39,602 nucleotides of DNA from Flavobacteriales bacterium (GTDB taxonomy: Bacteria; Bacteroidota; Bacteroidia; Flavobacteriales; Flavobacteriaceae), in the NCBI GenBank assembly GCA_027066365.1, contig JAMONV010000038.1:1-39602 (forward strand), in the 5' to 3' direction. The notes beneath the pieces are model-generated. The model made no database searches. It was not told the DNA's origin and worked only from the letters and a program-made list of their open reading frames with translations. Below, one piece after another: positions 6,474 to 25,404 of the stretch (within the stretch, counting starts at the first letter, position 1; the number at the start of each line of letters is the position of its first letter). The translations under genes and the position numbers were made by a program.

Positions 6474-7244
6474 TTAATTCTTTTGTTCGTTCCAAATCCG
6501 GTCCATTTCTTCAAGGCTCAACTCATGAATTTTTTTGCCTTGCGCTTCGGCTTTCGCTTCGATTTTTTCAAATCGTTTTTTGAATTTTTTATTGGTTTTT
6601 TCCAAAGCGGTTTCAGGGTTAACCCCGATAAAGCGCGCATAATTTATCAATGAAAAGAGCAAGTCACCGAATTCTTCTTCCGTAGCTTTTTGATCTTGTC
6701 TGTGTACCGCTTCGAGCAATTCTTTTTCTTCTTCCTTGACTTTTTTCCAAACATCATCGGGATTTTTCCAATCAAAACCCACACCGGCGGCTTTTTCTTG
6801 CATGCGCATGGCTTTGATCATAGCGGGTAAAGAACGGGGAACACCGGACAAAACGGATTTTTTTCCTTCTTTCATTTTGAGTTTTTCCCAATTTTTTTTG
6901 ACTTCTTCGGCGTCGTAAACTTTCAGTTCGCCATAAATGTGAGGATGGCGTTTAATAAGTTTATCGGAGATGTGATTGGCGATATCTGCCACGTCGAATT
7001 TCCCGATTTCTTCGCCGAGTTTTCCGTAAAAAACCAAATGAAGCATAATATCGCCGGCTTCTTCCATGATGCCTTCGTAATTTTTGTCCAGTATGGCGTC
7101 GGAGAGTTCATAGACTTCTTCGATGGTCAAGTGTCGAAGGCTGTGGAAAGTTTGTTTTCTGTCCCATGGACAACCTTTTCGTAGGTCGTCCATGATGTCC
7201 AGCAATCGACCGAATGCTTTAAGTTTTTCTTCCTTGGAGTGCAT
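6474..7244 (-). CDS. mazG: Nucleoside triphosphate pyrophosphohydrolase MazG
   Basis: A 256-residue all-alpha NTP pyrophosphohydrolase that hydrolyses (d)NTPs to NMP and PPi, a house-cleaning activity. Two tandem MazG domains are visible. The N-terminal one has CPWDRKQTFHSLRHLTIEEVYEL and the metal-binding EExxE...EEAGD pattern (EEVYELSDA, MEEAGDIMLHLVF). The second repeat follows the linker around SGVPRSLPAMIKAMRMQEKAAGVGFDW and carries KEEEKELLEA and EEEFGDLLFS. Length matches the two-domain family. The start codon lies inside the end of the BtuF-like gene (26-base overlap), so translation of the two is probably coupled. Confidence 0.96.
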   Translation of the reverse strand: MHSKEEKLKAFGRLLDIMDDLRKGCPWDRKQTFHSLRHLTIEEVYELSDAILDKNYEGIMEEAGDIMLHLVFYGKLGEEIGKFDVADIANHISDKLIKRHPHIYGELKVYDAEEVKKNWEKLKMKEGKKSVLSGVPRSLPAMIKAMRMQEKAAGVGFDWKNPDDVWKKVKEEEKELLEAVHRQDQKATEEEFGDLLFSLINYARFIGVNPETALEKTNKKFKKRFEKIEAKAEAQGKKIHELSLEEMDRIWNEQKN

Positions 7245-8034
7245 GATTGATTTTTTTGCGAATTTCCGAAAAATAATCGAAGGCTGTCAAGGGATAGGAA
7301 CCGAACCAAGTGAAAGGTTCTCCCGAAACATTCAAAATCAAGGAACGGGGAAAAAATTTTTGTATTTCCAGCCGGTGTTTTTCTTTGAACGGATATGGTT
7401 CCGAGGCCAAAAGAATAAGCTGCGGATTACGTTCGGCTATGGTATCCAATGATAATGCGGGATACCGGGCTTCGTTTTCAAGTGCTATATTTTCAAATCC
7501 GTTTAGGGAAAGCATAGTATCGATAAAGGTATTTTTCCCGGCTAACATATAAGGGTCTTTCCAGATGAAATAGGCGGTTTTTAACGGTTTTATGTTTTTT
7601 TTGTGAATTTGGAATTGTGCATTCAGCCGGTCGATAATTTGTTGTGCATTCCGTTCCTTACCCGTTAAAATACCGATATCGCGGATCCACCGGATATTAT
7701 CTTGTTCGCTAATTACTTCCGAGACATAAACGGGGAATATCCGGGCGAGTTTTTCCACGCCTTCTTTGGTATTTTCTTCTTTATTGGCCAAAATCAGATC
7801 GGGATTGAGTGCGGCTATTCGTTCGAAATGAAAGTCTTTGGTTCCTCCCACACGTTTTTTGGATTGTTTCCATTCGGAAGGATATTTGCAAAAGCGCGTA
7901 ATGCCTAGCACTTCACGGTCTAATCCTAAAGACCAAAGCAAGTAAGTTTGTGAAGGAAAGAGCGAGACGATGCGCTTGGCCGGATGAGGAAGGATTAGGT
8001 TTCTTCCCAGCATGTCTATTATTTCCACCGACAT
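7219..8034 (-). CDS. BtuF-like helical-backbone metal-receptor protein lacking a signal peptide
   Basis: A 271-residue protein of the class III periplasmic binding fold (BtuF/FhuD/TroA type), which normally captures cobalamin, haem or siderophores for an ABC importer. Both lobes carry the expected repeats: AKRIVSLFPSQTYLLWSLGL and IAALNPDLILANKEEN in the first, LDTIAERNPQLILLASEPYPF in the second, joined by a long helix. The N-terminus begins directly with the domain (MSVEIIDMLGRNL). Reading upstream in frame meets a TAA at 8059-8061 with no start between, so no signal peptide or lipobox was missed. No permease or ATPase gene adjoins it. Either it is retained in the cytoplasm or it works without standard export; the ligand is unknown. 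Confidence 0.8.
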   Translation of the reverse strand: MSVEIIDMLGRNLILPHPAKRIVSLFPSQTYLLWSLGLDREVLGITRFCKYPSEWKQSKKRVGGTKDFHFERIAALNPDLILANKEENTKEGVEKLARIFPVYVSEVISEQDNIRWIRDIGILTGKERNAQQIIDRLNAQFQIHKKNIKPLKTAYFIWKDPYMLAGKNTFIDTMLSLNGFENIALENEARYPALSLDTIAERNPQLILLASEPYPFKEKHRLEIQKFFPRSLILNVSGEPFTWFGSYPLTAFDYFSEIRKKINHALQGRKT

Positions 8035-11023: not shown

Positions 11024-11392
11024 TTAGTTTTCCTTTTTCTTGAAGGAGATCTTTTCTTTGATACGGGCTTTCTTTCCACGTAATTTGCGGAAATAGAAAA
11101 TACGACCTCGACGCACTTTACCGTGTTTGTTCACTTCGATTTTCTGAATGGAAGGCATGTTGATGGGGAATATACGTTCCACGCCGATGTCGCCGGACAT
11201 TTTTCTAACGGTAAAGGTTTCGGTGGCACCGTTTCCGCGTCGTTGAATGACGACGCCGCGGAAAAACTGTGTTCGTGTTTTGTTTCCTTCCTTGATTTCG
11301 TAGTAAACCGTTATGGTATCGCCTGCGTCGAAATGCGGGAAATCTTTTTTTTCCACCAATTGGTCGTTAACGTAACGAATTAATTCGTCCAT
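11024..11392 (-). CDS. rplS: 50S ribosomal protein L19
   Basis: A 122-residue large-subunit ribosomal protein located at the 30S-50S interface. Recognisable segments are FPHFDAGDTITVYYEIKEG, the FFRGVVIQRRGNG core, ETFTVRKMSGDIGVERIFP, and the basic tail VRRGRIFYFRKLRGKKARIKE. The frame remains open upstream to a TTG at 11464, but that would add 24 residues absent from the family and would begin inside the promoter. ATG at 11390-11392 (MDELIRYVND) gives the usual length. It is monocistronic with its own promoter and terminator and has a structured-looking leader (11438-11461). Confidence 0.97.
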   Translation of the reverse strand: MDELIRYVNDQLVEKKDFPHFDAGDTITVYYEIKEGNKTRTQFFRGVVIQRRGNGATETFTVRKMSGDIGVERIFPINMPSIQKIEVNKHGKVRRGRIFYFRKLRGKKARIKEKISFKKKEN

Positions 11393-11437
11393 GGCTTTAG
11401 TTTTTTTAGTTCGGGTTAGAGGAACATTCACGACCTT

Positions 11438-11461
11438 CGCCAGAGGTTCCAAAAACCGGCG
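11438..11461 (-). promoter_or_regulatory. Hairpin at the 5' end of the rplS leader
   Basis: On the minus strand the sequence right after the -7 element can form a stem of CGCC-GGTT with AACC-GGCG, a 5-base loop and a 3-base bulge. It lies at the expected transcript 5' end, about 45 bases before the rplS ATG. Ribosomal protein leaders of this kind can bind the encoded protein; here that role is only inferred, and the outermost base pairs may not be transcribed. Confidence 0.4.
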
Positions 11462-11492
11462 CAAAATTAGAATTTTATTTATTAAAAACCAA
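11462..11492 (-). promoter_or_regulatory. Bacteroidota-type promoter of rplS
   Basis: On the minus strand, TTG (11490-11492, within TTTG) is separated by 20 bases from TAATTTTG (11462-11469), a perfect -7 element. This is one of the best matches to the Bacteroidota promoter consensus in the window and suits a highly expressed ribosomal gene. Confidence 0.72.
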
Positions 11493-16411: not shown

Positions 16412-16446
16412 AATAAAAAAAAGCGACTCAAAAGGTTGAGCCGCTT
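16412..16446 (-). terminator. Terminator after the btuB-btuG operon
   Basis: An 11-bp stem with one G-T wobble (16421-16431 with 16436-16446) is followed on the minus strand by eight consecutive T. It lies 30 bases beyond the BtuG-like stop and before pdxJ. Confidence 0.78.
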
Positions 16447-16476
16447 CATTACGAAAAAGTGGGTTACTACGGGAAA

Positions 16477-17571
16477 TTATTCGTTTAACAATACCGAATT
16501 GGGCAAAAAACCTGTGGTAAATTCACCGATTTTGTTGAATTGATTACGGGCATCGAAGATGAAGACTTTTCCGGCGCTTTGATAATCACGGGCATCGGTG
16601 ATAAATAATTTTTCGTCGGCATAATCCATGCCATAGGGGGTTTGAATGCCTGCGCTGGCAAGATCTTTGAGGGTTTCGATTTGCAGGGTATTGCCGTTGA
16701 CAATGAGTTTTACCAATACGTTGTCTATAATCGTATAGAGATTTCCGTCGATGTAAGTAAGGAATTGCGGATGTCCGCCCGGAATAAAGGCGCTGGATTC
16801 CACTTGATTGGTAGCCGGATTTATTTGGTAAATGGTAGCGGCGGTTTCATTGCCGGTCCATGATGGATTACCCGAGCAAAGCACCCAGAGTTGATCGTTA
16901 TCGTCCTTAACAATGTCGGCAGGACGGTCGCCTACGGTGATATATCCGGTTACTTGTCGTGCAGCAGGATCGATGACGGCTACTTCGTTACCACCGTTGT
17001 TAGCGCCCAATCCGGCAATTAAAACATAGAGGTTGCCGCCTTGATAGAGCATTTTGCCCGCTCCAAGGTGAACGTGTAAGGTGTCGGTGATGACGTCATT
17101 GTCGGTGTCTACGAAGGCCACGAAATCGTCGTCAACCGGCGACCAATTGCTGTCGAAAACTTCTCCCCAATTGCTCAATGCCGCATAGCGATTGTCTATT
17201 TTGGTCATATAGCGGGGTGATTTGACATAGGCGGTCATTTCGGCCGTTTTCTTCATGGTCCAGCGTTTGGTTACCAGAATTTTATTCGAATTGTTAACGA
17301 CTATATACATTTTGTCGCCGCGGGCATAAAGCGATTGAGCAATGTCACCGATATTTTCGTTGTTTACTTTGTAGTAGACGCTATCTTCGGTTTCTTCGAA
17401 ATTTTTTTTCAGGAAGCTAATACTTGCGTTGTCGTGCATAAATTGTCCTTCGTTCAGCACGAAGTATCCGCCGTCGTAATCACCACGCGGGGGAACCGGT
17501 TTGGGTTTTTTACAGCTTGTAATGAAAATGCCGATGCTCAGCAGGAATGTGAGGATGTTTTTTGTTTTCAT
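16477..17571 (-). CDS. btuG: BtuG-like surface lipoprotein (DUF5074, YncE-type beta-propeller)
   Basis: A 364-residue lipoprotein with lipobox Cys20 (GIFITSC-KKPKP). The mature protein opens with GGYFVLNEGQFMHDNASISFL, the typical first blade of DUF5074/YncE-like propellers, and repeats follow (VAVIDPAARQVTGYITVGDRPADIVKDDNDQLWVL, FIPGGHPQFLTYIDGNLYTI, YGMDYADEKLFITDA). In Bacteroides, BtuG is a surface propeller that binds cobalamin tightly and hands it to BtuB. The same role is inferred here, since this gene overlaps the BtuB-type receptor by 4 bases (ATGA) and lies downstream of a cobalamin riboswitch. Specific B12-contacting residues cannot be confirmed by eye. Confidence 0.82.
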   Translation of the reverse strand: MKTKNILTFLLSIGIFITSCKKPKPVPPRGDYDGGYFVLNEGQFMHDNASISFLKKNFEETEDSVYYKVNNENIGDIAQSLYARGDKMYIVVNNSNKILVTKRWTMKKTAEMTAYVKSPRYMTKIDNRYAALSNWGEVFDSNWSPVDDDFVAFVDTDNDVITDTLHVHLGAGKMLYQGGNLYVLIAGLGANNGGNEVAVIDPAARQVTGYITVGDRPADIVKDDNDQLWVLCSGNPSWTGNETAATIYQINPATNQVESSAFIPGGHPQFLTYIDGNLYTIIDNVLVKLIVNGNTLQIETLKDLASAGIQTPYGMDYADEKLFITDARDYQSAGKVFIFDARNQFNKIGEFTTGFLPNSVLLNE

Positions 17572-19418
17572 GATTTATTGTTTTTATAGTTTTTGTTTAA
17601 ATTTATCTGTAAGATGAGATTAATTTTTCTTCCGGGCATGGGATGTGCCGGCATCCATTCGTAGTAAACATTAAAAATATTGTCGATACGAAGACCCGCC
17701 AACCCATTTTTATACCGGAAATTGAGTTCCAAATCGTTTAAGTAAACGGGTGGCATGACGGATAAATTGTCAGGGTCGGTGAAATAGAGGCTTTGAAAAC
17801 GGTAATGCCAAGCGGTTTCCCAGTGTTTATATCGAATCCGGATATTAGCATTATAGAGCAATTGCGGTGAATAATTGAGTAATTTTTTTGTTTTAAGGTT
17901 TAAAATTTTTTGGTAGGAAAGGATTTGTTTGAATCGGATATTCCATTTATTTCGTTTAATCCGGGTTATTGAAGAAAATTCCGCACCTGTTCCTTTGACT
18001 GCGTCTATATTCACGGGATGCCAAAGTCCGTTGTTGCCGGGTTGCCATCGAATGAGATCAAAGGTTTTTTTTCGAAATACATCTAGATAAACGATTGTTT
18101 TTAGTTGTTTGATATTCAGTGTGTTGCGGAAATTCCACTCGTGGTTTTTTTCGGGTTGGAGTGTGGGATTACCGCCGGGTTTCCAAAATAAGTCGTTAAA
18201 AGTAGGGAAGCGGTAGCCCGTGTTGTAGGAAAGTTTCAGTCCGTAATTTTTTGAAATTTCATAATTTACGGAAGCGTGTGATCCGTTTGTGAAGCTTTTT
18301 CGCTTTTGTTGCATATTGATTTGTAGTCCGCCGGTTAGGCTTAATTTATTGACGGGACGAAAAAACCATTCTTGCATCAGGGAATGGCGAATGATGACGT
18401 GCGGGTCGAAATTTTTGGACTGACCTTTCACGCTTTGCCATTCATATCGTAGATGTGCGGTGAGATGTTGTGTCCAATGCCAAGTAAAATTTTCTTTCAA
18501 ATATAAAGTGGATGCAAGGCCATGTCCGGAAGGTTTTTTTCCTTTGATGTAAAAATAGGTGTAATTTTCAAACAAATAGCCTGCTGTCAATAATTGCCGA
18601 AATTTATTGCGGTTTGTTTTCCAGTTGAAGGCGAAACGATAATGTTTATTGATCAATTTGCTGTTGGAAACGGAATGGAGTGTTCCGGGTAAATTTCTAT
18701 CGGAAGAAGATGCTAACATATTGAATGTTAGTAAGTTATTTTTGAATTTCCGGTAAAGACCGAGGTTAAAGTTGCGGTTTAGAATTTCGGCATTGGAATT
18801 GGTGTAATGAAAACGGTCGATTTGGAAATGGTTTTTTTCGCTGTGGAAAGAAAAGCCGCTGTTCATCGCCCAATTTCCTTTTCCCGCGTCGATTTTGACG
18901 GATGGAAGCCATTTTCCGAAGTCACCGGCGATGAGGGTTATTTTCACGGATCGATGCGAAGAGAAATCGGGCAGGTTTTGGAGTAACACGGCACCGCCTG
19001 TTGCACCGCTTCCGTAAAGAAAAGAGGCATCGCCCGTGTAGATTTTGATCCGGTTTACATTATTGACCGCAAGAGTGTTGAGGTCGGTTTGTCCGTTCAA
19101 AGGCGAATTGACAGGGACGTTGTTCCAGATTACACTCACTTGTGCAGGTGAAGCACCGCGAATGCTGATTCCGCTAACCATTCCCGCACCGTATTCACGT
19201 AATTGAAACGGGGTTTCTTTTTCGATAATTTGATTGAGATTGGCGGAAGTTTCCAATTTACCGGAATGGAGAATCAGGCTTTGGCGGATATTTTCCGGTT
19301 CAATCAAAAAGGATGAATTAACGCTAACCGTGTCTAATTTTTCTGTCTTTTCGTTTTGAGCGAAAAGGGGGGATTGAATCAACCAAAATGATATGTAAAC
19401 TAATACGTATTTTTTCAT
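17568..19418 (-). CDS. btuB: BtuB-type TonB-dependent outer-membrane receptor
   Basis: A 616-residue TonB-dependent receptor with signal peptide (cleavage near SPLFAQ-NEK). The plug domain spans roughly residues 28-150: LDTVSVNSSF, GISIRGASPAQVSVIWNNVPVNSPLNGQTDLNTLAVNNVNRI and IKIYTGDASFLYGSGATGGAVLL. The rest is a beta-barrel ending in IDNIFNVYYEWMPAHPMPGRKINLILQINL, the late-barrel signature. There is no N-terminal carboxypeptidase-like domain, so it resembles compact BtuB-type receptors rather than SusC. Cobalamin as substrate follows from the riboswitch directly upstream and the BtuG-like partner downstream. Energy would come from TonB-ExbBD encoded elsewhere. Confidence 0.9.
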   Translation of the reverse strand: MKKYVLVYISFWLIQSPLFAQNEKTEKLDTVSVNSSFLIEPENIRQSLILHSGKLETSANLNQIIEKETPFQLREYGAGMVSGISIRGASPAQVSVIWNNVPVNSPLNGQTDLNTLAVNNVNRIKIYTGDASFLYGSGATGGAVLLQNLPDFSSHRSVKITLIAGDFGKWLPSVKIDAGKGNWAMNSGFSFHSEKNHFQIDRFHYTNSNAEILNRNFNLGLYRKFKNNLLTFNMLASSSDRNLPGTLHSVSNSKLINKHYRFAFNWKTNRNKFRQLLTAGYLFENYTYFYIKGKKPSGHGLASTLYLKENFTWHWTQHLTAHLRYEWQSVKGQSKNFDPHVIIRHSLMQEWFFRPVNKLSLTGGLQINMQQKRKSFTNGSHASVNYEISKNYGLKLSYNTGYRFPTFNDLFWKPGGNPTLQPEKNHEWNFRNTLNIKQLKTIVYLDVFRKKTFDLIRWQPGNNGLWHPVNIDAVKGTGAEFSSITRIKRNKWNIRFKQILSYQKILNLKTKKLLNYSPQLLYNANIRIRYKHWETAWHYRFQSLYFTDPDNLSVMPPVYLNDLELNFRYKNGLAGLRIDNIFNVYYEWMPAHPMPGRKINLILQINLNKNYKNNKS

Positions 19419-19464
19419 TTTTTCCCTTGGCCTTTCCTCCGAAGACCGGTTTTTTTCGGGTTAG

Positions 19465-19627
19465 GGATTTCAGCAGGTCTCCTGGCTTACCGCATACTTT
19501 TGCCGCCTTCCCGTTCCGAATGACGAACAGTGGCAATTTGACAAAAGCGTCACGGATCACAGTTGCGGGGACAGCCCGGGATTTTCACCCGGTTCCCTTT
19601 TAATCCGTTTGATCGGAACTGAAATCC
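19465..19627 (-). ncRNA. Cobalamin (AdoCbl-type) riboswitch
   Basis: On the minus strand the leader of the receptor gene has the conserved cobalamin aptamer. The 9-bp closing helix is perfect (19619-19627 with 19465-19473). In order come GGTGAAAATCCCGGGCTGTC-like and CCCCGCAACTGTGA segments, GCCACTG, and the B12 box AAGCCAGGAGACCTGC at 19474-19489. The 3' end is 46 bases before the start codon. I see no strong intrinsic terminator between aptamer and ATG (only a 5-bp hairpin at 19439-19459), so translational control is more likely. High cobalamin would repress receptor and BtuG synthesis. Confidence 0.95.
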
Positions 19628-19631
19628 GCAA

Positions 19632-19639
19632 CAAAGTTA
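19632..19639 (-). promoter_or_regulatory. Candidate -7 element for the riboswitch-btuB transcript
   Basis: TAACTTTG on the minus strand fits TAnnTTTG and ends 4 bases before the closing helix of the aptamer, exactly where initiation is expected. At the -33 position there is only TTTC, 18 bases upstream of the -7 element. Confidence 0.55.
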
Positions 19640-19771
19640 AAAAAAATATTTTATTGAGAAAGCTTTATAATGGCCATTGATTTTCTTTGGCCTTAATCGC
19701 CGGATGTCGAAATACGGCCGTTTGTAATAGAGATTTTTTTTTTAAATTGTGCGCAATTTTAATGCTTGGGC

Positions 19772-21946
19772 ATGAGAAATTTTTTTCTATCCTTATTCGG
19801 GTTGTGTTTTTTTTTCATATCCGCTCAATATCAAATTACAGTAAGCGATATTTGGCTAAAGGGCACTTTTCGCCAGGATTATTTATACGGATACCTGTTT
19901 GCCGGGCGGCACGATATGATTTTTTCCCGCTTTGATCACGGGAAGTTTTATTTGGAACGTTTGGACATGAGTACCGGGCGGAGCAAGGAAATTATTTTTT
20001 CGAGTGAAAATCATTCCGGCCTCCGGTATGTTTATCAATATGTGTTTTCGCCTGATGAACAAACCATGTTGCTGTCGATATATCAAAAACCGGTTTACCG
20101 GCATTCCAAAATGGAAAGGTATGTTTTGTATGATATAAAGAAGAATAAAATCAGTGTGTTTGAAGATGATTTGATTCAAATTCCCACCTTTTTTCCCGAT
20201 GGAAAAAAAGTGGTTTATTTTAAGGATAACAATTTGTATATCAAGGATTTATCTTCCAAAAAAATTTTGCAAATTACTAAAGATGGCGAAAAAAATAAAA
20301 TTCTAAACGGCCATACGGACTGGGTTTATGAAGAAGAATTCGGATTTGTGAAGGCATATGCCGTTAGCCGAAGCGGGCGTTATTTGGCCTATTTGAAATT
20401 TGACGAATCACAAGTGCCGGCTTATTCGTTTCCGGTTTATGAGGACCGGCTTTATCCCGAGGAATATACGTATAAATATCCGAAAGCGGGTGAAAAAAAC
20501 TCGGAGGTTACACTTTATATTTATGATTTTGTTACGGGAACAACCCGGGCGGTCGATTTGGGTGAATACGAGTATATCCCCTTCATTCATTCGGGCAGGG
20601 AAGCGGATGATTTTGCCGTTATTACGATGAACCGTTTGCAAAATACCGAAAAATTATTTTTGGTAAAAACCGGTCAAAAGCCACATTTATTGTTGGTGGA
20701 ACAAGCGGAAAAATATTTGGATTTCGAACGTACGAAAAAATTGTTTTTTCTCAAAGACGGATCTTTCATTCGCACTTCCGAAAAAGACGGATACAATCAC
20801 ATTTATCATTATTCGGTGACAGGTAAAATAAAACGTCAGATTACCCGTGGAACATGGGAAGTGACCGAATTATACGGAGTGGATGAAAATAATAACCGGA
20901 TTTACTATCAGTCCAATGAAAGCGGCGTTTTGAATCGTGCCGTATATTCGATTGATTTCAAAGGAAAAAACAAGCGTCTATTAAGTCCTGAAAAAGGAAC
21001 ATCGTCGGCATCATTTTCCAAGGATTTTCAATATTTTTTACTGACCTATCAGAGTGTTGAGGAACCTTTGATATATATACTGAAAGATTTGCGCGGTCAA
21101 ACCGTTAAAGTTTTAAAATCCAACGAAAAACTCAAAGAAAAAGAGGCGAATATGCAATTGCCGGCGAAGGAATTTATTGATTTTAAATCCTCCGACGGTG
21201 AAACGGTTTTGCACGGTAGTATTATATTTCCGCCTGATTTTGACAAGCAAAAGCAATATCCGTTATTGATACACGGGTATAACGGGCCCGGCTATCAGAT
21301 GGTGCGCAATAGATGGTTTTCCTATGATGATTATTGGCACATGATGCTGGCTCAAAAGGGATTTATCGTAGTGACGGTTGACACACGCGGCACCGGTGGG
21401 CGCGGACGAGATTTCAGGCAGATTACTTATAAGCAACTGGGAAAATACGAATTGGAAGATTTGACGGCGGTTTTGCGGCAAATGGAAGCCAAACCCTATG
21501 TAGATCGAAGTAAAACGGGTATTTGGGGTTGGAGTTTCGGTGGGTTTATGGCAACCAATGCCCTTTTGCAAAAGCCGGATTTGTTTGATTTTGCCATAGC
21601 CGTGGCGCCTGTAACCAATTGGCGGTTTTACGATACGATATACACGGAGCGTTATATGCAAACACCGCAGGAAAATCCCGACGGTTACGACGACAATTCT
21701 CCGCTATCCTATGCGGAATTTTTAAAGGGTGATCTTTTATTGGTACATGGCACAGCCGACGACAATGTGCATGTTCAAAACACATACCGTTTGGCTTCGG
21801 CTTTACAAAGACAAGGAAAAACTTTTCGGATGATGATTTATCCCGATAAAAATCACGGCATATACGGAGGTGGAATTCGCTATCAATTATATAAAACGAT
21901 GACGGAATTTTTAATGGAAATAAAACAAAAAAATCATAAATCATGA
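19772..21946 (+). CDS. Dipeptidyl-peptidase IV-type S9 serine peptidase
   Basis: A 724-residue exported serine exopeptidase. A signal peptide (MRNFFLSLFGLCFFFISAQ) precedes an eight-blade-like beta-propeller (about 20-480) and a C-terminal alpha/beta-hydrolase domain. The catalytic triad is readable: Ser588 in GWSFGG, Asp663/664 in HGTADDNVH and His695 in KNHGIYGG. The propeller contains WVYEEEF with Glu187-Glu188, matching the DPP-IV Glu pair that binds the substrate N-terminus, so removal of N-terminal dipeptides (typically X-Pro) is likely. The start is ATG 19772; a TTG two codons earlier is rejected. The stop overlaps the next gene by 4 bases (ATGA), linking the enzyme to a peptide transporter. 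Confidence 0.93.
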   Translation: MRNFFLSLFGLCFFFISAQYQITVSDIWLKGTFRQDYLYGYLFAGRHDMIFSRFDHGKFYLERLDMSTGRSKEIIFSSENHSGLRYVYQYVFSPDEQTMLLSIYQKPVYRHSKMERYVLYDIKKNKISVFEDDLIQIPTFFPDGKKVVYFKDNNLYIKDLSSKKILQITKDGEKNKILNGHTDWVYEEEFGFVKAYAVSRSGRYLAYLKFDESQVPAYSFPVYEDRLYPEEYTYKYPKAGEKNSEVTLYIYDFVTGTTRAVDLGEYEYIPFIHSGREADDFAVITMNRLQNTEKLFLVKTGQKPHLLLVEQAEKYLDFERTKKLFFLKDGSFIRTSEKDGYNHIYHYSVTGKIKRQITRGTWEVTELYGVDENNNRIYYQSNESGVLNRAVYSIDFKGKNKRLLSPEKGTSSASFSKDFQYFLLTYQSVEEPLIYILKDLRGQTVKVLKSNEKLKEKEANMQLPAKEFIDFKSSDGETVLHGSIIFPPDFDKQKQYPLLIHGYNGPGYQMVRNRWFSYDDYWHMMLAQKGFIVVTVDTRGTGGRGRDFRQITYKQLGKYELEDLTAVLRQMEAKPYVDRSKTGIWGWSFGGFMATNALLQKPDLFDFAIAVAPVTNWRFYDTIYTERYMQTPQENPDGYDDNSPLSYAEFLKGDLLLVHGTADDNVHVQNTYRLASALQRQGKTFRMMIYPDKNHGIYGGGIRYQLYKTMTEFLMEIKQKNHKS

Positions 21947-23832
21947 ACAAAACAACGAAACAAAAACATCCCAAGGCATTATATACCTTGTTCACAACCG
22001 AGATGTGGGAAAGGTTTTCCTACTACGGTATGCGAGCTCTTTTGACGTTGTATTTGGCGGCCGAATTGGTGCGTGGCGGTTTCGGGTTGCCGCGCGAAGA
22101 GGCTTTGGCCGTATATGCTTTATTTACCGGTTTGGTTTATTTGACGCCGATTATCGGCGGTTGGGTGGCCGATAAATTTTTGGGTAAGCGAAAAACCGTT
22201 TACATTGGCGGGTTGGTAATGGCCGTCGGTCAATTTATGTTGGCTACCAGCGCATTCGGGGAGCTTTGGAGCTGGGATATGTCATTGCGCCATACGATTT
22301 TTAACCTCGGGTTGGGCATATTGATTATCGGTAACGGATTTTTCAAGCCCAATATTTCGACTATAGTTGGAGATTTCTATGACGATAACGATCCGCGTAA
22401 GGATTCTGCATTCAATATTTTTTATATGGGCATCAATTTGGGCGCCATTTTGGGACCGTTTATCGCCGGTTATTTAGGTGAAGAAGTTTTTTGGGGCTGG
22501 GGTTATTTTTCGGCCGGAGTGGGTATGCTGCTGGGAGTTTTATGGTTGTATTTTCATGAATATACGTTGGAAGATAAAGGTTTGCCACCGGGGCGAAACC
22601 GGTCGGAGGTGCTCGGAAAAAAAGATTGGGCGCAAATTGTGATATATGCGGTGGGATTGGTTTTGGGAACCATCGGGATTATTTTTCTTTGGAAGGCACT
22701 CCCCGATCCGGTAACCGGTGTTATTGTTCGTTGGGGCTTCGGGTTGTTGGTAGCAGGCATTGCTTATGTCATTATCCGTGGGCTCGAAGATGAAAATTCG
22801 TGGAAGGGTAAATTTATTCCCGTGGCCGTTTTGATATTGTTGATATTGATTGCTTCCGAAGCGGGGCTGTTCGGTATGTTGTCCGTTACGGTCAAAAAAT
22901 ACTTGATGTTTGGCGTGTTTGGCTTGGCATTATTAGGAATGATTCTTATGATGTTGAGTAAAAATACGGGATGGAGCCGGATGGGTGTTATTATAACTTT
23001 GGCCTTTTTTAATGTTGCCTTTTGGGCCGGATTTGAACAAGCGGGAGGAACTTTAAACCTGTTTGCCGACAAAAATACCAACCGTACTCTTCCGGCGTTT
23101 TGGGTGCCGGATTTCATAAAAAGCGTTCCCTTGAAATATTGGGGAATTGCGGCGCTTGTTTTCCTGGCGGTATTATTGTTTTACATATACAATAACATTT
23201 ATAGCGAAAACGAAACATTCAAACAAAAAATTGAGCCGCTTTACAAAATAGGACTATACGGAACGTTGTTTTTCGCCTTCATTGCCGTTTGGAGTTTTTT
23301 TGCATCCGGTCCTGAAATTCCCGCCTCGTGGTTTCAGAATATCAATCCTTTTGCCATATTGATTTTCGCGCCGATTTTTTCGGTGATGTGGTTGTGGTTG
23401 GACCGGCTCGGATTGAATCCGCGGACGTCCATTAAGTTTGCTTTGGGCTTGTTTCTGGGTGCAGTGGCATTCTTTGTAATGACCATGGCGCAAAATCGCG
23501 CCGATTCCGGTCATTTGGTTTCGCCGTTGTGGTTGGTGGCCGTGTATGTAATATTGACTTTAGGCGAGTTGATGCTTTCGCCTATCGGTTTATCGATGAT
23601 TACCAAATTGGCCGATGCCAAGATGGTTTCGGTGGTGATGGGATTGTGGATGGCCAGTTTTGCGGCAGGCAATTATCTGGCCGGGATTTTGGAAGCCACT
23701 TTACACAAACTGCACGATGTGGGCTTAAACATCGACTTGTATCCTTTCTTGACCTATGTGATGTTGGGGTCGGGAATTATATTGGTGCTTCTTTCGCCGC
23801 TGTTAAACAAAGCTATGAAAGGAATTCATTAA
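21943..23832 (+). CDS. POT/PTR2-family proton-coupled peptide transporter
   Basis: A 629-residue inner-membrane major facilitator that imports di- and tripeptides with protons. The POT signature ExxERFxYYG is intact near residue 17 (TEMWERFSYYGMRALL), and the second family motif occurs as FNIFYMGINLGAILGPFIAGYLGE near 165. About fourteen hydrophobic segments are apparent, including extra helices between the two six-helix bundles (residues ~220-350). Late motifs GELMLSPIGLSMITKLA near 545 are typical of bacterial PTR2 proteins. It is translationally coupled to the S9 peptidase upstream (4-base overlap), which suggests it takes up dipeptides that enzyme releases. Confidence 0.94.
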   Translation: MNKTTKQKHPKALYTLFTTEMWERFSYYGMRALLTLYLAAELVRGGFGLPREEALAVYALFTGLVYLTPIIGGWVADKFLGKRKTVYIGGLVMAVGQFMLATSAFGELWSWDMSLRHTIFNLGLGILIIGNGFFKPNISTIVGDFYDDNDPRKDSAFNIFYMGINLGAILGPFIAGYLGEEVFWGWGYFSAGVGMLLGVLWLYFHEYTLEDKGLPPGRNRSEVLGKKDWAQIVIYAVGLVLGTIGIIFLWKALPDPVTGVIVRWGFGLLVAGIAYVIIRGLEDENSWKGKFIPVAVLILLILIASEAGLFGMLSVTVKKYLMFGVFGLALLGMILMMLSKNTGWSRMGVIITLAFFNVAFWAGFEQAGGTLNLFADKNTNRTLPAFWVPDFIKSVPLKYWGIAALVFLAVLLFYIYNNIYSENETFKQKIEPLYKIGLYGTLFFAFIAVWSFFASGPEIPASWFQNINPFAILIFAPIFSVMWLWLDRLGLNPRTSIKFALGLFLGAVAFFVMTMAQNRADSGHLVSPLWLVAVYVILTLGELMLSPIGLSMITKLADAKMVSVVMGLWMASFAAGNYLAGILEATLHKLHDVGLNIDLYPFLTYVMLGSGIILVLLSPLLNKAMKGIH

Positions 23833-23862
23833 GCTTAAGTTACATAAAAAATATTTGGAACA

Positions 23863-25404
23863 ATGGAACAGACACAAGAGAAAATGGGATTGATAGCCTT
23901 GTTTAAATCCTTTCCCAAGGCTTATTGGTTTGCCAGTATATTCGAATTATTGGAACGTTATGCGTGGTATGGATTATTCGCGGTATTTGGCTTGTATTTG
24001 ACCAATGAATTGGGTTTTTCATCGGCTCAACGAAGCAGTATTCAAACCATTGTTACGGGAATTTTATACTTACTGCCGATTATAACGGGTGCCATAGCCG
24101 ATAAAATAGGTTATAAATTAACTTTGGCCTTATCATATATCATATTGATGACCGGCTATTTTTTTATGGGGCATGTCACTGTATATTGGGCGGTATTTTC
24201 GGTGTTTTTATGGGTTGCGATAGGTGCCGCTATGTTTAAACCCGTAGCTTCGGCTATTGTAACCAAAACAACCGATGAACGCAATTCTTCATTCGGTTTC
24301 GGCTTGTTTTACATGATGGTGAATATCGGAGGATTTTTCGGTCCTTTATTGGTAGGTATATTACGAAATAAATTTGATTGGGATGCAGTGTTTGTCTCTT
24401 CTTCATTGGCAATTTTACTCAATTTGGTTATTTTGATGTTTTTTAAGGAACCGGATAGGGAAAAAATAGAAGAGTCCACCTCCGAAACCATAAAACGATC
24501 GTTATTAAACATTTGGGAAGCACTGAAAGATCTTAAACTCACCTTCCTGTTGATTATTATGATAGGGTTTTGGCTGATGTTCAATCAGTTGTTTTACACA
24601 TTGCCCAATTTTATCGACGATTGGGTCAATACGGAAAAAGTTTATCGTTTCATTCACTCCCTTTGGCCTTGGCTGGCCGACCAAATGAAGAACAGCGAAG
24701 GAGGAATCAATCCCGAGCAGATGGTTAATTTGGATGCCTTTTTTATTGTTGTCTTCCAAATAGTGGTTTCCTATATTATCTTGAAATGGAAACCGATCAA
24801 TGCCATGATGACGGGAATTTTTATTACTATCGTAGGGATTGCCTTGTCTTTTTACTCCAATAATGCCACTTATACGGTATTGGGTATTTTGATTTTCGCT
24901 TTAGGCGAAATGACTTCCAATCCCAAATTTTCGGATTATATCGCGCAAATATCGCCCAAGGGCAAGGAGGCGTTATACATGGGAACTTATTTCTTGCCGA
25001 TTGCAGCCGCCAATTTTCTTACGGATATTATATCGGGTGATTTGTATCAGAACAAGGCGGATAAATTGACTCTGCTTTTCAGATATTTAAAAGACAAAGG
25101 TATCGATATTGTGGACAAAAGCACCGGAAAACTGGTTACATACACCAATGAAGGTATTCAATTGATGAATGAGAATGGTCATGTTTTAAGTGATAAACCC
25201 GGAATCAAGCGCAATGAAATTCTGGCACAGGCGGCCGAAAAATTACATGTGAGCACGGCCGAACTTCAAAATGTTTTATGGGATACATACCACCCGGGCA
25301 AGATTTGGTGGGTGATGGCTACCGTAGGCATGATAACTTTCGCCGGATTGTTGATTTATAATTATGTTATCAACACCTATTTTAAAGAAGAAAAATCGGC
25401 TTGA
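23863..25404 (+). CDS. Second, divergent POT-like MFS transporter
   Basis: A 513-residue inner-membrane transporter beginning 30 bases after the first POT gene. It keeps the family pattern in altered form: FELLERYAWYGLFAVFGLYL (ExxERYxWYG instead of ExxERFxYYG) and FGLFYMMVNIGGFFGPLLVG in place of the FYxxINxG motif. GEMTSNPKFSDYIAQISP near 345 corresponds to the GE-SP motif. Two unusual soluble stretches stand out, a loop around residues 245-290 (VNTEKVYRFIHSLWPW) and a hydrophilic segment around 390-480 before the last helix. A peptide or peptide-like substrate is inferred from family and operon; it probably differs from that of its neighbour. Confidence 0.86.
   Translation: MEQTQEKMGLIALFKSFPKAYWFASIFELLERYAWYGLFAVFGLYLTNELGFSSAQRSSIQTIVTGILYLLPIITGAIADKIGYKLTLALSYIILMTGYFFMGHVTVYWAVFSVFLWVAIGAAMFKPVASAIVTKTTDERNSSFGFGLFYMMVNIGGFFGPLLVGILRNKFDWDAVFVSSSLAILLNLVILMFFKEPDREKIEESTSETIKRSLLNIWEALKDLKLTFLLIIMIGFWLMFNQLFYTLPNFIDDWVNTEKVYRFIHSLWPWLADQMKNSEGGINPEQMVNLDAFFIVVFQIVVSYIILKWKPINAMMTGIFITIVGIALSFYSNNATYTVLGILIFALGEMTSNPKFSDYIAQISPKGKEALYMGTYFLPIAAANFLTDIISGDLYQNKADKLTLLFRYLKDKGIDIVDKSTGKLVTYTNEGIQLMNENGHVLSDKPGIKRNEILAQAAEKLHVSTAELQNVLWDTYHPGKIWWVMATVGMITFAGLLIYNYVINTYFKEEKSA

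Follow-up and report, generated by a model that had tools for sequence, protein, structure and literature searches.

The DNA analyzed in this work, hereafter the window, is a whole contig of 39,602 nucleotides (JAMONV010000038.1, our contig C38) from an uncultured Flavobacteriales bacterium of the Flavobacteriaceae, whose genome comprises 2.03 Mb in 64 contigs and is rated 98.99% complete. On its minus strand, a cobalamin riboswitch precedes two overlapping genes, a btuB-type TonB-dependent receptor and a btuG-type propeller lipoprotein, and a terminator-like hairpin follows them (Table 1). This BtuBG operon is real, intact, conserved and of a known kind, and in our opinion it very probably serves for outer-membrane cobalamin uptake under repression by B12. 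A first, sequence-only reading of the window had reported a full cobalamin aptamer ahead of a TonB receptor, the overlap of the receptor stop codon with the start of a DUF5074 lipoprotein, and a terminator of the unit's own. The first two points were confirmed by the family models and by the four shared bases. The third agrees with the hairpin found about 30 nt past the btuG stop, which is supported by its position and stem length only, since the total of terminator-like sites in the whole scan was below expectation (3 found, 4.4 expected). In the same scan promoter-like sites were no more frequent than chance (9 found, 8.0 expected).

Table 1. Features of the riboswitch-btuB-btuG locus (positions in the window)
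Feature	Positions	Strand	Remarks
Cobalamin riboswitch aptamer (RF00174)	19455..19638	-	132.2 bits (gathering threshold 31.5); model positions 1-189, the whole model
Conserved hairpin, P13/L13-like candidate expression platform, loop UUCGGAGGAAA	19425..19451	-	A few flanking bases included
btuB-type TonB-dependent receptor	17568..19418	-	616 aa; Pfam Plug and TonB_dep_Rec
btuG-type DUF5074 propeller lipoprotein	16477..17571	-	364 aa; lipobox Cys20; DUF5074 74.2 bits (Pfam cut-off 27.2)
ATGA overlap, btuB stop and btuG start	17568..17571	-	Four bases
Terminator-like hairpin after btuG	16420..16447	-	12-pair stem, 4-nt loop, T-rich tail

The genes flanking the pair are pdxJ, downstream, and a divergent gene for a DPP IV-type peptidase, upstream, so no B12 gene adjoins btuB-btuG, as had been stated. 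The emphasis then given to a minimal unit did not stand, because the riboswitch-btuB-btuG order is that of nine out of nine genomes of the genus (in one of them btuG lies in two pieces on two contigs). Each of these genomes contains exactly one cobalamin riboswitch, and the one described here is the sole one in its genome. The BtuG protein is 48-56% identical to those of four relatives, all of them metagenome-assembled genomes (MAGs) named "Flavobacteriales bacterium". The unit is kept across the genus while its neighbours change: none of the eight other genus genomes showed the window's peptidase in the 1.9-3.0 kb preceding btuB, and neither pdxJ nor the hydrolase was found after btuG in the five of them with at least 0.5 kb visible, the other three stretches ending at btuG.

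The homology with the BtuB-BtuG pair of Bacteroides, also proposed in the first reading, holds at the level of sequence and at that of the predicted folds, the best matches being BtuB2G2, BtuB3G3 and BtuB1G1 of B. thetaiotaomicron. By both approaches the lipoprotein is of the BtuG type, with solved BtuG proteins as its closest relatives. Twelve distinct sequences of solved structures matched it at E ≤ 1e-5, and all are BtuG (ten identified by the entries that Foldseek listed, 8baz and 8puj by the aligned letters). With its predicted model, ranks 1-16 of the Foldseek search were BtuG chains (best E 5.7e-18), followed by BtuK1 and XusB; the chain at rank 9, 3DSM, is treated as BtuG in PMC6143338. 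The lipobox reads ITSC, and its cysteine is invariant in 29 aligned BtuGs.

The receptor is closest to those of BtuBG complexes. Among sequences of solved structures, BtuB2, BtuB3 and BtuB1 all came ahead of E. coli BtuB, and in the Foldseek search with the predicted model the receptors of BtuBG complexes occupied ranks 1-6, with Cir and E. coli BtuB (E 4.3e-24) next. In the NCBIfam search, B12 receptor models were top-ranked, yet below their cut-offs. It was described for B. thetaiotaomicron (PMC10404256) that BtuG acts as a lid, B12 being dislodged by loop EL8 of BtuB; one position of this loop is Tyr538 in BtuB3, Phe in BtuB2 and Trp in BtuB1. In the equivalent loop of our receptor, Trp466 aligns with that position, and it is invariant in this receptor and in four congeneric ones. 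Index 538 of the solved BtuB3 chain is indeed Tyr, in agreement with the paper. The locus thus resembles those of B. thetaiotaomicron in the riboswitch, the TonB receptor with an adjacent propeller lipoprotein, and the EL8 aromatic residue. It differs from them in having two genes and one riboswitch locus, compared with three loci to which additional lipoproteins and ABC genes belong (PMC10404256), in a shorter receptor (616 aa compared with 690-713 in the solved chains), and in the pocket residues of BtuG and those that follow its lipid cysteine.

To place the pair in its family we used a set of 100 genomes, our own included, in which btuG was matched in 35 and the riboswitch in 84. The relatives yielded 111 riboswitch matches; the ten weakest (≤59.6 bits) were left out and 100 loci analyzed, with open reading frames (ORFs) of at least 80 aa called mechanically, and a 101st locus (G022:C89, riboswitch 80.7 bits) showed neither a BtuB nor a BtuG match. 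In 33 of the 100 loci the riboswitch is followed by btuB-btuG, in 52 by btuB, the next ORF not being btuG (referred to as lidless), and in 15 no btuB match comes first. Lidless loci are therefore 52 of the 85 with riboswitch and btuB. The ORF after btuG lies on the opposite strand, in a convergent arrangement, in 24 of the 33 lidded loci. A single-sequence search gave no BtuG match anywhere in 50 of the 52 lidless genomes; regarding the two exceptions, G094 has a lidded locus as well and G036 presents a weak partial match. We had considered the two-gene form as a possible novelty and rejected it, given that this is the usual arrangement in the genus and common across the family (33 of the 100 loci). 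According to PMC10404256, which cites earlier surveys, nearly all B12 loci of Bacteroidetes encode BtuG; one such survey covered 313 gut genomes (PMC6143338). With 52 of 85 riboswitch-btuB loci devoid of an adjacent btuG, that statement fails in this family.

In a tree of 86 receptors (our own included), a single change divides the lidded side from the lidless one (SH-aLRT, an approximate likelihood-ratio support, of 86, not starred). The branch of our BtuB is long (2.39), and the tree program warns of long branches meeting. One receptor paired with BtuG, L116, branches next to the lidless clade and is devoid of the EL8 motif [WF]xPxN. This motif, chosen after seeing the same receptor rows, is present in 28 of the 34 receptors paired with BtuG and in none of the 52 unpaired ones. 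An aromatic residue occupies the aligned EL8 column in 31 of 34 lidded receptors (W in 26, F in 5) and in 17 of 52 lidless ones, where the surrounding loop differs. It should be noted that the association of EL8 with the lid is not an independent proof, since it reflects one clade split and not many separate events. Whether the family holds two riboswitch-controlled BtuB clades in which the lidded-only EL8 motif is a device specific for the lid, the lid itself being an ancient environmental trait and not a gut adaptation, is in our judgment an evenly balanced question. In any case, the two clades offer a natural comparison for the roles of the lid and of EL8. As a separate observation, in loci L071-L073 btuG is closely followed by a third gene (about 375 aa), and in L071 a PKD-like match to its product falls slightly short of the Pfam cut-off.

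Regarding the riboswitch leader, a hairpin with a stem of four pairs in the window ends 10 nt ahead of the btuB ATG, and it was found in nine of nine genus members, 7-10 nt ahead of the first ATG. In the genus alignment two of five pairs are changed on both sides, and 95.6% of cells pair, compared with 86.9 in shuffled alignments; two sequences, including that of the window, have lost the outer pair. Of 500 shuffles, 1 reached the covariation score and 88 the number of pairs changed on both sides. In corrinoid riboswitches a kissing loop is formed between L5 (consensus UCCCG) and a CGG in L13 (PMC10653944). The window has CGG in the hairpin loop and UCCCCG in the aptamer. The hairpin is compatible with the published L13 arm, and we infer a kissing-loop role for it from PMC10653944.

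Taken as an operon for cobalamin uptake, the locus would work as follows. At low intracellular cobalamin, the leader would permit translation of both btuB and btuG, the second presumably coupled to the first through the ATGA overlap. BtuG, anchored by its lipid outside the cell, would bind cobalamin and sit as a lid on BtuB; on closing of the lid, loop EL8 with Trp466 would displace the vitamin from BtuG into the barrel, with TonB driving it through the receptor. At high cobalamin the aptamer would bind it, L5 would kiss the loop of the hairpin before the btuB start, and translation of the pair would halt.

Several observations weigh against this reading. The predicted models derive from alignments of five rows each (mean predicted local distance difference test score, pLDDT, of 76.3 for BtuG and 70.0 for BtuB), and identity to solved BtuG in the fold alignments is about 21-23%. 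The receptor misses the NCBIfam B12-receptor equivalog TIGR01779 (84.2 against a cut-off of 599.7), so membership in it is not claimed. Index 524 of the solved BtuB3 chain is not the EL8-tip Ser named in PMC10404256, and because of this mismatch the other EL8 positions were left unmapped. An adjacent acidic pair soon after the lipid cysteine is present in 24 of 28 aligned BtuGs of the family (23 counted by script plus L145 by alignment); in our protein the cysteine is followed by K-K-P-K-P, with no such pair, and therefore this motif does not support surface display of BtuG. In all nine BtuGs of the genus the residue after the cysteine is K or R, with a P-[IV]-P-P run behind it, a stretch that could possibly be a surface-export tether specific to the lineage. 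In the leader, free-energy folding was no better than in shuffles (z -1.16 and 0.52), and the strict loop motif of the genus occurs in just 5 of the 85 family loci (4 of 33 lidded, 1 of 52 lidless). A relaxed hairpin, with a stem of at least five pairs and a TCGG loop, is present in 75 of the 85 (30 of 33 lidded and 45 of 52 lidless), where about 1.3 would be expected from mononucleotide shuffles; this pattern is post hoc, since it was defined after reading the misses of the strict motif. Finally, some residues of the ligand pocket differ. The residues named for the upper-ligand pocket of BtuG2 are Trp194, Tyr239, Trp272, Tyr316 and Tyr335 (PMC10404256); in our protein His267 replaces Trp272, nothing is aligned with Trp194, and Tyr239 lacks a clear match.

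These changes in the pocket lead to a first alternative, in which the pair would import another corrinoid, or mainly precursors such as cobinamide, by the same mechanism with a shifted ligand preference; BtuG2 itself binds several corrinoids (PMC10404256). We regard this as rather unlikely, because the two remaining pocket tyrosines are kept (Tyr313 and Tyr330 for Tyr316 and Tyr335) and the aptamer is a full match to RF00174, although the latter does not decide the ligand, given that corrinoid riboswitches can respond to several corrinoids (PMC10653944). It is improbable, in turn, that the riboswitch prematurely terminates transcription and does not act on translation. That mode is known for some corrinoid riboswitches (PMC10653944), but on the minus strand there is no terminator-like site from the aptamer to the btuB start, and the conserved L13-like hairpin stands just ahead of the start codon in all the genus members. 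For both reasons control of btuB is likely to take place at translation. XusA is a TonB receptor paired with a propeller lipoprotein, XusB. Import of a siderophore or heme by a pair of that kind is hardly credible and was rejected on the presence of the riboswitch and the fold ranking: ferrichrome-bound XusB is among the propeller fold matches (rank 19, E 1.2e-10) and the barrel distantly matches siderophore, copper and heme receptors, but in nine of nine genus genomes the pair lies behind a cobalamin riboswitch, the E-value of XusB is seven orders of magnitude poorer than that of the best BtuG chain, BtuK1, another B12-binding protein, outranks XusB, and the models ranked first for the receptor, even if sub-cut-off, are those for B12.

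Another aspect to mention in relation to a cobalamin uptake operon is the content of B12-related genes in the rest of the genome. NrdJ is present (496 bits, cut-off 399.95), together with QueG, a PduO-type adenosyltransferase and methylmalonyl-CoA mutase, the latter being the genome's only match to the B12-binding domain. E. coli has class I ribonucleotide reductases. This species was also matched by the NrdJ search, and with a single match in the genome of the window the search revealed no second large subunit of class I/II. Imported B12 would then serve NrdJ, a class II ribonucleotide reductase and the sole large subunit so found, as well as methylmalonyl-CoA mutase and QueG. The MetH reactivation domain was found in none of the nine genus genomes, with 7 of 14 control genomes positive. 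As for transport, there is one FecCD permease, on contig C4, whose top model is BtuC, below cut-off; by eye, no transport partner is apparent beside it. Two Peripla_BP_2 proteins are encoded in the genome, one on contig C16, with a lipoprotein-like start, and one in the window itself (7219-8034, minus strand). The latter is BtuF-like (TroA_like), and its start shows no signal peptide by eye; the ORF beside it is presumably mazG. Among the relatives' loci, 27 of 100 (e.g. L075) contain pieces of a gene similar to that of the C16 binding protein, placed divergently next to the riboswitch, and in L098 a Peripla_BP_2 gene follows btuB.

In the gut Bacteroidetes, btuG homologs adjoin btuB in B12 transport operons, as in our locus; that set comprised 313 gut genomes, whereas the present case belongs to a Flavobacteriales lineage known from MAGs (PMC6143338 for the gut set). 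A limited literature search, judged mostly by titles, gave no study of such a system in flavobacteria. The BtuBG lid system would extend from gut Bacteroides to a small-genome genus of Flavobacteriales, in whose nine genomes riboswitch-btuB-btuG is the only cobalamin-riboswitch locus. The receptor also shares with E. coli BtuB the fold of a cobalamin TonB receptor, but the E. coli protein ranks under the Bacteroides BtuBG receptors; to our knowledge, it has no lid protein.

Elsewhere in the window, the plus strand from 19766 to 25404 carries the DPP IV-type peptidase followed by two tandem transporter-like ORFs, which resemble peptide transporters. In addition, an L19-Flavobacteria ribosomal leader (11422-11449, minus strand, 40.1 bits) overlaps the 5' end of the ORF at 11024-11464.

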